Assembly: GCF_003054225.1 (NCBI RefSeq)
Contig: NZ_QBKQ01000004.1
Coordinates: 62,001-126,000, forward strand
Length of the DNA: 64,000 nucleotides
Direction: 5' to 3'
DNA from: Christiangramia gaetbulicola
GTDB lineage: Bacteria; Bacteroidota; Bacteroidia; Flavobacteriales; Flavobacteriaceae
Shown here: positions 35,184-38,100 of the stretch, in pieces
Position numbering within the stretch: position 1 is the first letter of the stretch
How the letters are laid out: each line of letters begins with the position of its first letter
The notes under the pieces: model-generated
The model's database searches: none
Told to the model about the DNA's origin: nothing
What the model saw: only the letters and a program-made list of their open reading frames with translations
Program-made: the position numbers and the translations under genes

Positions 35184-36383
35184 ATGAAAACTGTAGTAAT
35201 TGGAGGGAATTTCGCAGGTTTAACAGCCGCATTGGAATTAAAGAGAAAAGGAAAAAAAGAGCAGGAAGTTGTTGTAATAGACAAATCTACTGCCTTCCTT
35301 TTTATTCCGTCCCTGATATGGGTTCCATTTGGAAGAAGAGAGATCAAGGATATTTCGTTCCGCAAGGATGAACTTTTGAGAAAGAAAGGAGTCGAGTTCA
35401 TAAATGCTGAAGCAATTAAGGTAGTCCCTGCAGAAAATCTCGTGGTTACCAGTAAAGGCGAAGTAAATTATGATCAACTGGTGATCGCTACCGGACCAAA
35501 GGTGAAATATGATGTTGCGCCTGGGATTAAGGAATATGCCCATTATATAGGTACTCCTAAAGGAGCCATGGAAACACGAAAAGCTCTGGAGAAATTCAAA
35601 AAAGATCCAGGTCCTGTAGTGATTGGGGCAACTCAGAATGCTGGTTGTATGGGTGCGGCCTATGAATTCTTGTTTAATGTTGAAAAATGGCTTCGTGAAC
35701 AGAAGATCCGTGAAAAAGTGGATTTGTACTGGATCACTCCCGAAACCTTTTTAGGCCACTTTGGAATTGATGGAATAACAGGAGGGGAAACCATGTTGAA
35801 ATCTTTTATGAAGATGTTCCATATTCATTACAGAACAGAAGTGGGAGTGAAGGAAGTATTTAAAGACAGGGTAGAACTGACTACCGGTGAAATTCTGCCT
35901 AGCAAGTTCACCATGCTGATGCCTCCATTTGTGGGAGTTGATTTTGTAACTAATTCTCCTGCTCTTCATGCTACCGAGGCAGGATACATTCCGGTAACTA
36001 ATGGTTACAGGCACGTGGATCACCCCAACATCTGGGCGGCGGGAATCGCGGTAGATGTGAAATTGCCCTTCAAACCCGGTAAGATTCCGTTCTCTGGTCC
36101 TAAAACCGGTTATCCGTCAGATGAGACAGGAAAGATCGTGGCCGAGAATATTATCAGGTTGTCCAGAGGTAATACGAAACTAAAAGAAAAGGCGTGGGGT
36201 AAAATTCCCGGGATCTGCGTTATGGATGCGGGCAAAAAAGAAGTCATCATATTATCTGATACACTCTTTAAACCCAGAAAATTTGCGGTGATGATCCCAA
36301 ACGTACTTTACGATTTTTCTAAAGTGCTCTTCGAAAAATACTTTATGTGGAAAACAAAACGAGGATTGTCTTATTTACCTTGA
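35184..36383 (+). CDS. Sulfide:quinone oxidoreductase-like FAD flavoprotein
   Basis: 399-residue pyridine-nucleotide-disulfide-type flavoprotein. The N-terminal FAD-binding motif is GGNFAGLTAALEL, the second FAD contact is IWAAGIAV, and a C-terminal hydrophobic, basic region suits peripheral membrane attachment. Cys155 (QNAGCMGAAYEF) and Cys345 (PGICVMDAG) correspond to the redox cysteine pair of sulfide:quinone reductases; a third, accessory cysteine is absent. It would oxidise sulfide and reduce quinone, perhaps for detoxification. NDH-2-type activity is a less likely alternative given the cysteine pattern. It is a lone gene with a palindrome upstream. Confidence 0.82.
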   Translation: MKTVVIGGNFAGLTAALELKRKGKKEQEVVVIDKSTAFLFIPSLIWVPFGRREIKDISFRKDELLRKKGVEFINAEAIKVVPAENLVVTSKGEVNYDQLVIATGPKVKYDVAPGIKEYAHYIGTPKGAMETRKALEKFKKDPGPVVIGATQNAGCMGAAYEFLFNVEKWLREQKIREKVDLYWITPETFLGHFGIDGITGGETMLKSFMKMFHIHYRTEVGVKEVFKDRVELTTGEILPSKFTMLMPPFVGVDFVTNSPALHATEAGYIPVTNGYRHVDHPNIWAAGIAVDVKLPFKPGKIPFSGPKTGYPSDETGKIVAENIIRLSRGNTKLKEKAWGKIPGICVMDAGKKEVIILSDTLFKPRKFAVMIPNVLYDFSKVLFEKYFMWKTKRGLSYLP

Positions 36384-36411
36384 TCATCGGTTAGATTTTT
36401 AAATCGAGGTA

Positions 36412-36462
36412 TTAAAAAACCCCGAACTAAAAAAGTTCGGGGTTCTAAGGTGGTGCCTCCAG
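36412..36462 (-). repeat. 51-bp repeat, copy 1: tRNA-Phe 3' end plus terminator
   Basis: Identical to the copies at 36783-36833 and 37153-37203. On the minus strand it reads as the last 11 bases of tRNA-Phe (CTGGAGGCACC), a 9-nt linker, a 9-bp terminator stem (CCCCGAACT/AGTTCGGGG, 36420-36442) and a T-run. Here it follows GIY-YIG copy A, and beyond it the sequence is unique. Confidence 0.92.
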
Positions 36463-36487
36463 CCCCGAAGCATCGGGGGAACCAGGT

Positions 36488-36772
36488 TCAGGCTCTTTTT
36501 TCTAATATTTGATTTAAAATGGAGGGGTTGTTTATTACCTTTTCAATAAACGTCTTGCTTTTCATTCGTTTTATAAAACTCTCCAGATACAAAGCATTTT
36601 CCTTTGAATCTGTATTGAATGTCAATTTGATGGTCCAGTCATCAGCTGCATTCGTAAAGGCATTTTTAAAATGATGCTTATTATGGAGATCCAGACGAAT
36701 ATCGGCATCCGGTGTTTCTCCTGTATAATACTTATCTAGCCTTTCAGAATAGAGAATGTATAGGAAGTGCAT
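36488..36772 (-). CDS. GIY-YIG nuclease-domain protein, copy A
   Basis: 94-residue single-domain protein of the GIY-YIG superfamily (UPF0213/UvrC-N type). Motif positions: LYILYS near residues 4-9 and YYTGET at 15-20 (the GIY and YIG elements), Arg26 in DIRLDLHN, and Glu64 in YLESFIKR, so the usual catalytic residues appear present. No extra DNA-binding domain. It lies between two 51-bp tRNA-derived repeats, transcribed in the same direction as tRNA-Phe. It differs from copy B at 15 of 94 residues, without any frameshift, so both genes appear intact. Confidence 0.85.
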   Translation of the reverse strand: MHFLYILYSERLDKYYTGETPDADIRLDLHNKHHFKNAFTNAADDWTIKLTFNTDSKENALYLESFIKRMKSKTFIEKVINNPSILNQILEKRA

Positions 36773-36782
36773 AACTATAAAA

Positions 36783-36833
36783 TTAAAAAACCCCGAACTA
36801 AAAAAGTTCGGGGTTCTAAGGTGGTGCCTCCAG
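36783..36833 (-). repeat. 51-bp repeat, copy 2: tRNA-Phe 3' end plus terminator
   Basis: Identical to copies 1 and 3; terminator stem at 36791-36813. It lies between GIY-YIG copy B (upstream on the minus strand) and copy A. Next to it at 36834-36849 is a cassette-specific hairpin (CCCCGA/TCGGGG), also found beside copy 1. Confidence 0.92.
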
Positions 36834-36857
36834 CCCCGAAGCCTCGGGGGAACCAGT

Positions 36858-37142
36858 TCAGGCTCTTTTTTCTAATACTTGATTTAAAATTGAGGGATCG
36901 TTTATGACCTTTTCAATAAACTTTTTGCTTTTCATTCGTTTTATAAAAATTTCCAGAAAGACAGCATTTTCCTTTGAATCTGTTTGAAATTTCAATTTTA
37001 TGCTCCAGTCGTCAGCTGCATTCGTAAAGGCATTTTTAAAATGATGCTTATTATGGAGGTTCAGCCGAATATCTGGATCAGGTGTTTCTCCTGTGTAATA
37101 CCTATTTAATTTTTGGGAATAGAGAATGTAGAGGAAGTGCAT
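36858..37142 (-). CDS. GIY-YIG nuclease-domain protein, copy B
   Basis: 94-residue paralogue of copy A with the same motifs (LYILYS, YYTGET, Arg26, Glu64). The start is ATG at 37142. A longer frame reaches 37223 but would read through the terminator and into the tRNA antisense region, so it is rejected. It follows the intact tRNA-Phe gene and its terminator on the same strand. Small GIY-YIG proteins of this kind are common and mostly uncharacterised; the repeated tRNA setting hints at nuclease-driven insertion at the tRNA end, which is inference. Confidence 0.85.
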   Translation of the reverse strand: MHFLYILYSQKLNRYYTGETPDPDIRLNLHNKHHFKNAFTNAADDWSIKLKFQTDSKENAVFLEIFIKRMKSKKFIEKVINDPSILNQVLEKRA

Positions 37143-37152
37143 TGCTATAAAA

Positions 37153-37203
37153 TTAAAAAACCCCGAACTAAAAAAGTTCGGGGTTCTAAGGTGGTGCCTC
37201 CAG
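37153..37203 (-). repeat. 51-bp repeat, copy 3: real 3' end and terminator of tRNA-Phe
   Basis: The copy attached to the complete tRNA gene. The terminator stem is 37161-37183 with its T-run at 37155-37160 (minus strand). Being contiguous with the full tRNA it is probably the original, with copies 1 and 2 derived. Spacing between copies is 371 and 370 bp. Confidence 0.93.
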
Positions 37204-37264
37204 GAATCGAACCAGGGACACAAGGATTTTCAGTCCTTTGCTCTACCAACTGAGCTAAGGCACC
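37192..37264 (-). tRNA. tRNA-Phe (anticodon GAA)
   Basis: 73-nt cloverleaf on the minus strand. Acceptor stem GGTGCCT/AGGCACC is fully paired. The D-arm contains AGCTCAGTTGGTAGAGC, the anticodon loop is CTGAAAA (GAA, Phe) in the stem AAGGA/TCCTT, and the T-loop is TTCGATT. The T-stem CCTGG/CCTGG has a central U-U mismatch. The discriminator base is A. CCA is not fully encoded (genome reads CCT). Its last 11 bases are repeated twice downstream with its terminator. Confidence 0.96.
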
Positions 37265-37368
37265 AGTTGCTTTGTTAAGCGGTGGCAAATATAATTTCAT
37301 TTTTAGGAACTCACAAAGGAAATTTTAAAAAAATGCTTTTGTATTTTAGCTTTTCTAAGAAAATCTGA

Positions 37369-38100
37369 ATGAATTTAGTCATCGATGCCGGAAATACTTC
37401 AGTAAAGACTGCTGTTTTTCAAAACAATAGCTTGCTGGAAAAGCAGAATTTCCAGAAAGAAAATTTTTCAGAAGAATTTCAAAAGATTCTAAAAAAGTAT
37501 CCTCAAATCAACAAATCCATCATTTCAAGTGTTACTTCCGGGGAAAATGAAATGATTTCTGAGGTCAAAAAAGCATTTCCTGTGCTGGAATTGAATAATT
37601 CTACCCCGGTCCCTTTTGAAAATCGATACGCTTCGCCTGAAACTTTAGGAAAAGACAGGATCGCTTTAGTCGCTGCGGCGGTAAATTCCTTTCCCGGTAA
37701 AAACGCTTTGATCATCGATGCCGGTACCTGTATAACTTACGACATTAAAACCGCAGAAGAAATTTACTTAGGTGGGGCGATTTCTCCTGGTTTGAACATG
37801 AGATTTAAAAGTCTGCACAAGTTTACAGCGAATTTGCCGTTAGTTATTCCGAAGCCGGAAGCCGAATTAATAGGTAATACTACTCAAACCAGCATCTTAT
37901 CCGGAATTATTAATGGAATTAAAATGGAATTAAAAGGAACAGTAGAATCCTACAGCGCTCAATTTGAAGATTTAACAGTAATTTTTACAGGTGGGGATAG
38001 TCAAATTTTGTCTATACCATTAAAAAATAGCATATTTGCCAACTCAAATTTTTTGTTAGAAGGACTTAATTTCATTCTAGAATTTAACAATACTCAATGA
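37369..38100 (+). CDS. coaX: Type III pantothenate kinase
   Basis: 243-residue ASKHA-fold kinase for the first step of coenzyme A synthesis. Phosphate-binding motifs are VIDAGNTSVKTAVF at the N-terminus and IDAGTCITYD near residue 117. GKDRIALVAA and GGAISPGLNMR are also conserved in CoaX. The ATG at 37369 gives the expected N-terminus. Its stop overlaps the start of the next gene by 4 bases (ATGA), so it heads an operon with envelope genes. Confidence 0.95.
   Translation: MNLVIDAGNTSVKTAVFQNNSLLEKQNFQKENFSEEFQKILKKYPQINKSIISSVTSGENEMISEVKKAFPVLELNNSTPVPFENRYASPETLGKDRIALVAAAVNSFPGKNALIIDAGTCITYDIKTAEEIYLGGAISPGLNMRFKSLHKFTANLPLVIPKPEAELIGNTTQTSILSGIINGIKMELKGTVESYSAQFEDLTVIFTGGDSQILSIPLKNSIFANSNFLLEGLNFILEFNNTQ

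Follow-up and report, generated by a model that had tools for sequence, protein, structure and literature searches.

How two small nuclease genes came to lie between identical copies of a tRNA 3′ end is the question raised by a tRNA-Phe locus of Christiangramia gaetbulicola. The locus is part of the window, by which we mean the whole stretch of 64,000 nucleotides that was analyzed. An initial annotation had described it as a tRNA-Phe with two 94-aa GIY-YIG cassettes and three identical 51-bp copies of the tRNA 3′ end and terminator, and this arrangement was confirmed (Table 1). The copies had been interpreted as the outcome of insertions that recreate the tRNA end, in the fashion of integrases, and the two units of the array as successive insertions of different cassettes. 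Comparison with relatives upholds the first part of this interpretation and not the second. The locus is probably best understood as a minimal mobile element of ~370 bp which carries one single-domain GIY-YIG gene, is sited inside a tRNA gene and moves in a homing-like manner.

Organization of the tRNA-Phe locus

The units in the window share one order, namely a terminator, the 94-aa ORF, a few T-arm bases, a 16-nt hairpin, the tRNA 3′ end and a terminator, and their start-to-start spacing is 370 and 371 bp. The T-arm-like sequence and hairpin that had been noted at the cassette end are present as claimed: the T-arm strand CTGGTTC (CCTGGTTC in the distal cassette) is followed by the 16-nt hairpin and then by CTGGAGGCACC. 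The surrounding genes encode a type III pantothenate kinase (PF03309) and an oxidoreductase (PF07992). In an Rfam scan of positions 36000-37700 the tRNA alone passed its cut-off, the other eight matches falling far below theirs, and a known structured RNA was dropped as an explanation; a defense system was likewise dropped, as PADLOC gave no match.

ORFs A and B, of 285 nt each, differ at 34 positions (dS 0.42, dN 0.076). Their dN/dS of 0.18 points to purifying selection on the protein. The noncoding repeats of the window differ at 0 of 48 positions versus 34 of 285 in the ORFs, which is among the extreme cases found.

Table 1. Features of the tRNA-Phe locus, in window coordinates.
Feature	Position	Strand	Basis
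Intact tRNA-Phe (gaa), target gene	37190..37264	minus	ARAGORN; Rfam RF00005, 70.3 bits
Repeat copy 1: intact tRNA 3′ end and terminator hairpin	37153..37203	minus	identical to copies 2 and 3
GIY-YIG ORF A, 94 aa, tRNA-proximal cassette	36858..37142	minus	PF01541, E 2.1e-9
Leftover T-arm 5′ strand CTGGTTC, between ORF A and hairpin A	36850..36856	minus	sequence; same position in relatives
Hairpin A (CCCCGAGGCTTCGGGG), at T-loop position of broken tRNA copy	36834..36849	minus	sequence; pairing conserved in relatives
Repeat copy 2: tRNA 3′ end from T-loop on, and terminator	36783..36833	minus	identical to copy 1
GIY-YIG ORF B, 94 aa, distal cassette	36488..36772	minus	PF01541, E 1.2e-9
Hairpin B (CCCCGATGCTTCGGGG)	36463..36478	minus	sequence; pairing conserved in relatives
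Repeat copy 3: distal tRNA 3′ end and terminator, adjoining native flank	36412..36462	minus	identical to copies 1 and 2

The GIY-YIG protein

Both ORFs belong to the GIY-YIG superfamily, with PF01541 matches above the cut-off and the conserved residues in place. In an alignment of 49 sequences Y5, S9, G18, R26, W46, and K68 are invariant and Y16 and E64 are found in at least 90%; Y5, G18, R26, Y16, and E64 are presumably the catalytic residues of GIY-YIG proteins. An AlphaFold2 model of the 94-aa protein has a single domain (mean pLDDT 88), and no DNA-binding domain beyond GIY-YIG was found. The best Foldseek match of this model in the PDB is weak (UPF0213 protein BH0048, E 9.9e-4, TM 0.53, rmsd 8.0), with Slx1 following at E 0.04 and weaker, and I-TevI weaker still. 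A sequence search of the PDB up to E 1 gave a single weak match, also to UPF0213 (1zg2, E 0.038).

UPF0213 and bacterial Slx1-like proteins resemble the window protein in their single minimal GIY-YIG domain (PDB 1zg2; PMC1564403). They differ in that the 2006 survey of the superfamily, in the sections available, presents minimal bacterial Slx1-like proteins as predicted repair proteins and does not describe tRNA-gene cassettes for them (PMC1564403).

A phage origin was set aside, as no tblastn match at E 1e-3 was found in 50,697 phage records, two peptide patterns retrieved no relative from IMG/VR, and PHROG gave one match at E 0.03 and none better.

Empty and occupied sites

A Maribacter-like genus of eight genomes contains both empty and occupied tRNA-Phe sites. 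At the two empty ones (G177 and G172) a terminator of the CCTTACTC type stands behind the tRNA. Three occupied ones (G152, G174, and G175) share a CCCTGCA..GCAGGG terminator, which stands between the intact tRNA and the ORF, and the terminator type of the empty sites, CCTTACTC, is found beyond their last hairpin, together with a tRNA 3′ end. The distribution of the two terminator types indicates that a tRNA end and a terminator came in with the cassette and displaced the native ones. Judged by this comparison within one genus, insertion of the element took place in the T-loop and left a restored tRNA, in support of the proposal that insertion recreates the tRNA end. Of the other genomes, G178 has kept the cassette terminator with a truncated ORF, and the cassette of G173 and G176 is of another type. 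The same insertion and restoration would have taken place in the window, with its identical copies.

Presence or absence at a fixed site in relatives, as known for homing genes, was found in these eight genomes and, at both tRNA-Phe and tRNA-Pro, in the 24 genomes of the window genus. All 24 tRNA-Phe loci of the latter were found; by eye, 16 have no cassette, six have an ORF (G000, the window genome; G002, decayed; G009, where the contig ends; G012, G014, and G015) and two have remnants (G003 and G020). The tRNA-Pro site, likewise judged by eye, is empty in G018, G005, G023, G010, and G009, has an ORF in G000, G001, and G016, and has ORF-less fragments in G003, G007, and G014. The initial annotation had suggested comparing tRNA-Phe loci of relatives by cassette number, and 0, 1, 2, or at least 3 cassettes occur. 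The closest empty relative of the window is G018, and the flank beyond its terminator resembles, by eye, the flank beyond repeat copy 3. Its terminator differs from that of the window, where the distal terminator is cassette-like, and homogenization or a larger unit must therefore be assumed there.

Association with tRNA genes across Bacteroidota

Free-standing GIY-YIG ORFs adjoin tRNAs more often than expected by chance in the C. gaetbulicola genome. Eleven GIY-YIG matches were found, three in long open frames (462-608 aa) and eight free-standing. Five of these eight lie within 1 kb of a tRNA: two at Phe, two between tRNA-Val genes (L006) and one at tRNA-Pro (L005). With 1.77% of the genome within 1 kb of one of the 41 tRNAs, the chance of this is p 9e-8; counted as separate loci it is three of six (p 1e-4), which includes the window finding itself.

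The enrichment that had been predicted beside tRNA genes was also seen outside this genome. Eighty free-standing family loci were collected from 31 of the 40 best genomes by E-value, leaving aside rows of the window genome, frames of 249 and 274 aa, and adjacent tandem partners, and 17 of them lie within 600 nt of a tRNA. The best 80 of 144 relatives yielded 78 named Phe-type loci in public genomes. A tRNA-Phe precedes the ORF on its own strand at 59 of them, at a distance of up to 1 kb (41-60 nt in 47); for 10 the nearest tRNA is a different one (Met 4, Cys 2, Leu 2, Val 1, Asp 1), and nine lack any, seven of which have less than 450 nt of upstream sequence. Hosts among these best 80 are mostly genera of Flavobacteriaceae, with some Chitinophagaceae and one Balneolaceae. 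Of 341 ORF records, a sample biased by searches favoring this family, 221 have a tRNA within 3 kb, and without exception the nearest one shares the strand of the ORF.

Related GIY-YIG lineages adjoin Val, Pro, Arg, Asn, Met, Leu, Ala, Asp, Cys, and Ser tRNAs, and the window locus is one case of a widespread system. Two layouts occur. In the 3′ layout (Phe, Val, Asn, Met, Arg, Pro) an intact tRNA and terminator are followed by the ORF and then by a broken tRNA 3′ part with a hairpin. The 5′ layout (e.g., Pro, Arg, Leu, Ala, Asp) starts with a hairpin-bearing 5′ part of a broken tRNA, which precedes the ORF and an intact tRNA; some of these ORFs end within the tRNA. In 12 further loci a broken tRNA copy with a palindrome was found at Ala (4 of 4), Leu, Arg-cct, and two Ser loci (L253 and L260). 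A third Ser locus (L251) is ambiguous, the copy at one Cys locus (L327) continues beyond the stretch examined, the other Cys locus (L335) begins at a contig edge, and beside tRNA-His (L268) no tRNA copy follows the ORF in the stretch examined. Of 13 tRNA-Pro loci examined, two (L376 and L384) have no intact tRNA. As a separate observation, L241 (G170:C34:5500-11500) has eight GIY-YIG units in a row behind a 5′-truncated fragment of an initiator-type tRNA-Met, with no intact tRNA within its 6 kb.

The protein lineages were compared with tRNA identity on a tree of 114 proteins, for which rows more than 85% alike and rows with no tRNA within 1.5 kb had been dropped and one Phe row in four retained; the alignment has 94 columns, few for this number of rows, and many forks are unresolved. 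On this tree tRNA identity changes 28 times and layout 15 times. With the catalytic core only, tRNA identity changes 30 times versus 77-90 in 50 shuffles, so that protein lineage predicts the tRNA well, though not perfectly, and layout changes 13 times versus 31-43. Moreover, tRNA-associated and other GIY-YIG proteins (143 and 68 rows) are largely separate, with 14 changes versus 54-64 in 30 shuffles. These trees suggest that each protein lineage is largely tied to one tRNA.

A possible mechanism of insertion

In the proposed mechanism the unit would consist of the tRNA 3′ part from the T-loop on, the terminator, the ORF, the last bases of the T-arm 5′ strand and the hairpin. The nuclease would cut the tRNA gene at the arm now occupied by the hairpin, and insertion would thus be driven by cleavage of tRNA DNA. 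Homing-like repair would then insert the cassette, with another allele or a sister copy as template. The cassette-borne 3′ part would complete the tRNA, and the resident tRNA end and terminator would be pushed behind the hairpin as a dead fragment; the 5′ layout would be the mirror image of this. The hairpin may protect the broken copy. Each protein lineage would recognize one tRNA, and the restored tRNA would again be a target, so that arrays could grow and shrink.

Several points count against this mechanism. Since the intact tRNA and its 3′ flank remain, a nuclease directed at the tRNA gene should attack its own host as well. The tRNA-Phe genes of the window genome and the empty G018 are identical, and no change that might protect the tRNA was found. 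Protection through loss of the recognition site in the cassette allele seems to fail if the site lies in the tRNA, since the hairpin interrupts only the broken copy and the intact tRNA is restored beside the cassette. The ORFs of the window are sisters, and arrays need not be repeated insertions. ORF-less units, the vertical fit of most locus pairs (both below), the tRNA-His locus with no tRNA copy, the unresolved tree forks, the distal terminator of the window, the single domain of the protein and its weak fold match, nearest UPF0213 and Slx1, were counted against it as well. That these units form an undescribed class of autonomous element, with a single-domain GIY-YIG protein as target-specific integration enzyme, a hairpin end set in a particular arm of a particular tRNA gene, a tRNA repair copy and non-autonomous derivatives made of hairpins and tRNA fragments, is a tentative suggestion that falls somewhat short of an even chance.

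Hairpins and dispersed palindromes

In most Phe-type loci with downstream sequence the stop codon is followed by CCTGGTTC, the hairpin and CTGGAGGYACC. A tRNA-end copy is recognizable at 74 of 88 ORFs at tRNA-Phe and not at 14 (five for lack of sequence). Six outer hairpin pairs form in 71-74 of the 74 cases; pair 1 is C-G in 46, T-A in 27 and unpaired in one, and pair 2 is C-G in 67 and T-A in six, these being counts of sequences uncorrected to independent events. On this alignment, the hairpin sits at a fixed point and has undergone paired changes.

The hairpin core was also found at 27 places in the C. gaetbulicola genome, and a reversed-pattern control at none. Eight of these places are within 1 kb of a tRNA (two in the window), versus 0.5 expected. 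About half of 15 contexts examined (8, by eye) are in the loop of another dispersed repeat, which reads CTGT-hairpin-AGTTTCAG and its reverse. At L345 a second dispersed repeat lies inside the loop of the cassette hairpin, a palindrome inside a palindrome, and at L244 several arms of the broken tRNA-Pro copy have been replaced by palindromes.

REP sequences are dispersed short palindromes associated with RAYT, an HUH-type transposase. The cassettes resemble them in having dispersed short palindromes, possible non-autonomous copies and a small nuclease. This raises an alternative in which hairpin DNA, as a single strand or a cruciform, is the substrate of the nuclease and palindromes move into the loops of other hairpins; ORF cassettes would be the autonomous form and bare hairpins the non-autonomous one, and tRNA genes would be hit because they are made of hairpins. 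The hairpin-core places, the nested repeats, and L345 and L244 are in its favor, as is the fold, nearest UPF0213 and Slx1, the latter described as a structure-specific endonuclease (PMC1564403). This alternative is nevertheless unlikely. Repeats beside GIY-YIG ORFs away from tRNAs are not clearly more common than beside control ORFs (29 of 74 versus 36 of 135 flank windows), an unconvincing enrichment that was left as weak, and a lineage that tracks tRNA identity is not expected under pure recognition of structure. Unlike the REP/RAYT system, the unit has a GIY-YIG ORF in place of a Y1 HUH transposase, and its hairpin is found at one point of a tRNA arm. By eye, the three free-standing ORFs away from tRNAs in the C. 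gaetbulicola genome (L001, L002, and L003) are near repeats such as CTTCGACTGCGCTCAG and CCCTGAACTTGTTTCAGGG.

Evidence for movement and for local amplification

ORF and flank identity were compared in 414 locus pairs with comparable flanks. The median difference (ORF minus flank) was 0.2, with the ORF above the flank in 216 pairs, so that most pairs fit vertical descent. In Aequorivita, two loci (L308 and L330) have ORFs 96.9% identical in flanks of 79.2%, and in another pair (L228 and L292) the values are 96.1% and 78.3%. ORFs 96-97% alike in flanks 78-79% alike indicate that some cassettes, a minority in these pairs, moved horizontally and independently of their flanks, as homing genes do. 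The proximal terminator differs between L308 and L330 and the distal copy is identical. L228 and L295 are 89-100% alike in 75-base flank windows, yet their ORFs are 89.9% identical. The tRNA-Pro cassettes of the window genome and G001 have ORFs identical at 226 of 228 positions, with upstream identity of 74-92% and downstream identity of 85-100% from about 200 bases on; this downstream likeness suggests that exchange may exceed the cassette.

ORFs A and B share 84% of their amino acids, whereas the best of 47 other aligned sequences reaches 63%. They are thus each other's closest relatives, which does not bear out successive insertions of different cassettes and favors local amplification of one cassette over two unrelated insertions. 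The array of the window has probably grown by local amplification with homogenized repeats, to judge from these identities. Arrays of 1-8 units were found among the loci examined. In the Phe-type arrays that were compared, ORFs of one array differ from each other at 0 to 50 of about 285 nt, which, with the sister relation of the window pair, speaks for local amplification and against repeated foreign insertion. A general conservation of the noncoding repeats above the ORFs is disfavored by the pooled array comparison, in which 122 of 1049 repeat positions differ versus 209 of 5982 ORF positions, with differing repeat copies or displaced matches at L292, L295, and L299.

A reading without mobility is disfavored and has little probability. 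It holds that an old tandem duplication at tRNA genes is upheld by recombination between repeats, the nuclease being a passenger or a host repair factor. The sister cassettes of the window would suit it, as would the joint divergence of ORF and flanks in many locus pairs and a 30-nt terminator stretch with a mean identity of 0.91 within loci versus 0.56 between them, for which the copy at the same locus is best or tied-best in 32 of 43 loci. It is opposed by the occupied sites, where the terminator after the intact tRNA differs from that after the last hairpin and the latter matches empty sites, by the nearly identical ORFs in divergent flanks, and by the recurrence of the same anatomy at many tRNAs, on either side, with empty sites in relatives. 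A reading at the level of RNA, in which the protein would be a toxin-like, tRNA-specific ribonuclease and the hairpin-bearing fragment an RNA decoy or antitoxin, is very improbable: lineages largely tied to one tRNA each, a fragment on the strand of the tRNA and conserved hairpin pairing agree with it, but the duplicated stretch includes the terminator, which is absent from mature tRNA, the fragments lack much of the tRNA, PADLOC found nothing, and empty sites and horizontal replacement suit a DNA element.

Relation to known systems

The closest known systems to the homing-like element proposed here are integrase islands at tRNA ends and phage SegB. Integrase-borne islands classically land in essential tRNA genes. 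Such islands, and satellites, at tRNA 3′ ends insert into the tRNA gene; a copy carried by the element makes the tRNA whole again, and its original end is displaced. The same three features, insertion within the tRNA gene, a restoring copy and a displaced native end, were found in the Maribacter-like genus. The cassettes differ in being about 370 bp long, with one GIY-YIG ORF per unit, no site-specific recombinase and a hairpin at the junction; they also occur in a 5′-side layout, and the tRNA follows the nuclease lineage.

SegB is a free-standing GIY-YIG homing endonuclease of T-even phages, tied to tRNA genes and implicated in cutting within tRNA-containing sequence (PMC13096335). The growth of arrays through a re-targeted tRNA would resemble the SegB-driven tandem amplification of the tRNA/segB unit in phage T6 (PMC13096335). 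SegB differs in belonging to phage genomes, and the accessible part of its description reports no favored tRNA isotype, no hairpin-ended broken tRNA copy and no restored interrupted tRNA (PMC13096335). The window protein is set apart from SegB by this description and by the searches of phage records, and not by direct sequence comparison. Among the literature matches listed, mostly open-access and with preprints outside their scope, there was no account of chromosomal GIY-YIG cassettes in tRNA genes and none of GIY-YIG together with repetitive extragenic palindromic sequences.

A single-domain nuclease gene, with no recombinase to accompany it, seems here to use tRNA landing sites and to have diverged into lineages that largely keep to one tRNA each. 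If so, these lineages would be natural sets of compact nucleases with matched targets. Their specificity can be tested directly on the many protein/tRNA pairs found here that have sister lineages at other tRNAs. They would also be a bacterial counterpart to phage SegB for the study of nuclease-linked repeat growth at tRNA genes, and would account for tRNA fragments, and for spurious calls of selenocysteine tRNA, in genomes of this kind.

Fragments of tRNA in the host genome

Partial tRNA copies were sought around the 29 tRNA loci of C. gaetbulicola, a same-strand copy being accepted when it scored more than 3 above the best of 20 shuffles. By this rule 12 of 41 tRNAs in 10 loci have such copies (Val, Pro, Arg-cct, Thr, Gly, His, Ala, Asn, Phe, and Met), versus one of 41 in an opposite-strand control under the same loose rule. 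Three of these loci have GIY-YIG ORFs and seven do not. By eye, tRNA-Leu(tag) is an eleventh locus with two ORF-less units, which failed the rule; here (L368, G000:C1:659389-659680) two hairpin-bearing tRNA-Leu(tag) 3′ fragments with terminators stand in tandem. At L372 (G000:C1:944756-944963) two tandem tRNA-Arg(cct) 5′ fragments with hairpins were found, also ORF-less. At the Thr, Gly, His, and Asn loci (L411, L406, L426, and L413) the copied tRNA 3′ end follows a different repeat-like sequence, e.g., GAGCGAAGTCGAAG, which takes the place of the CCCGA hairpin.

Hairpin-bearing tRNA fragments may cause false tRNA annotations. At L132, ARAGORN reads a tRNA-SeC(tca) at 2876-2952, on the GIY-YIG strand, from a hairpin-bearing broken copy of tRNA-Val.
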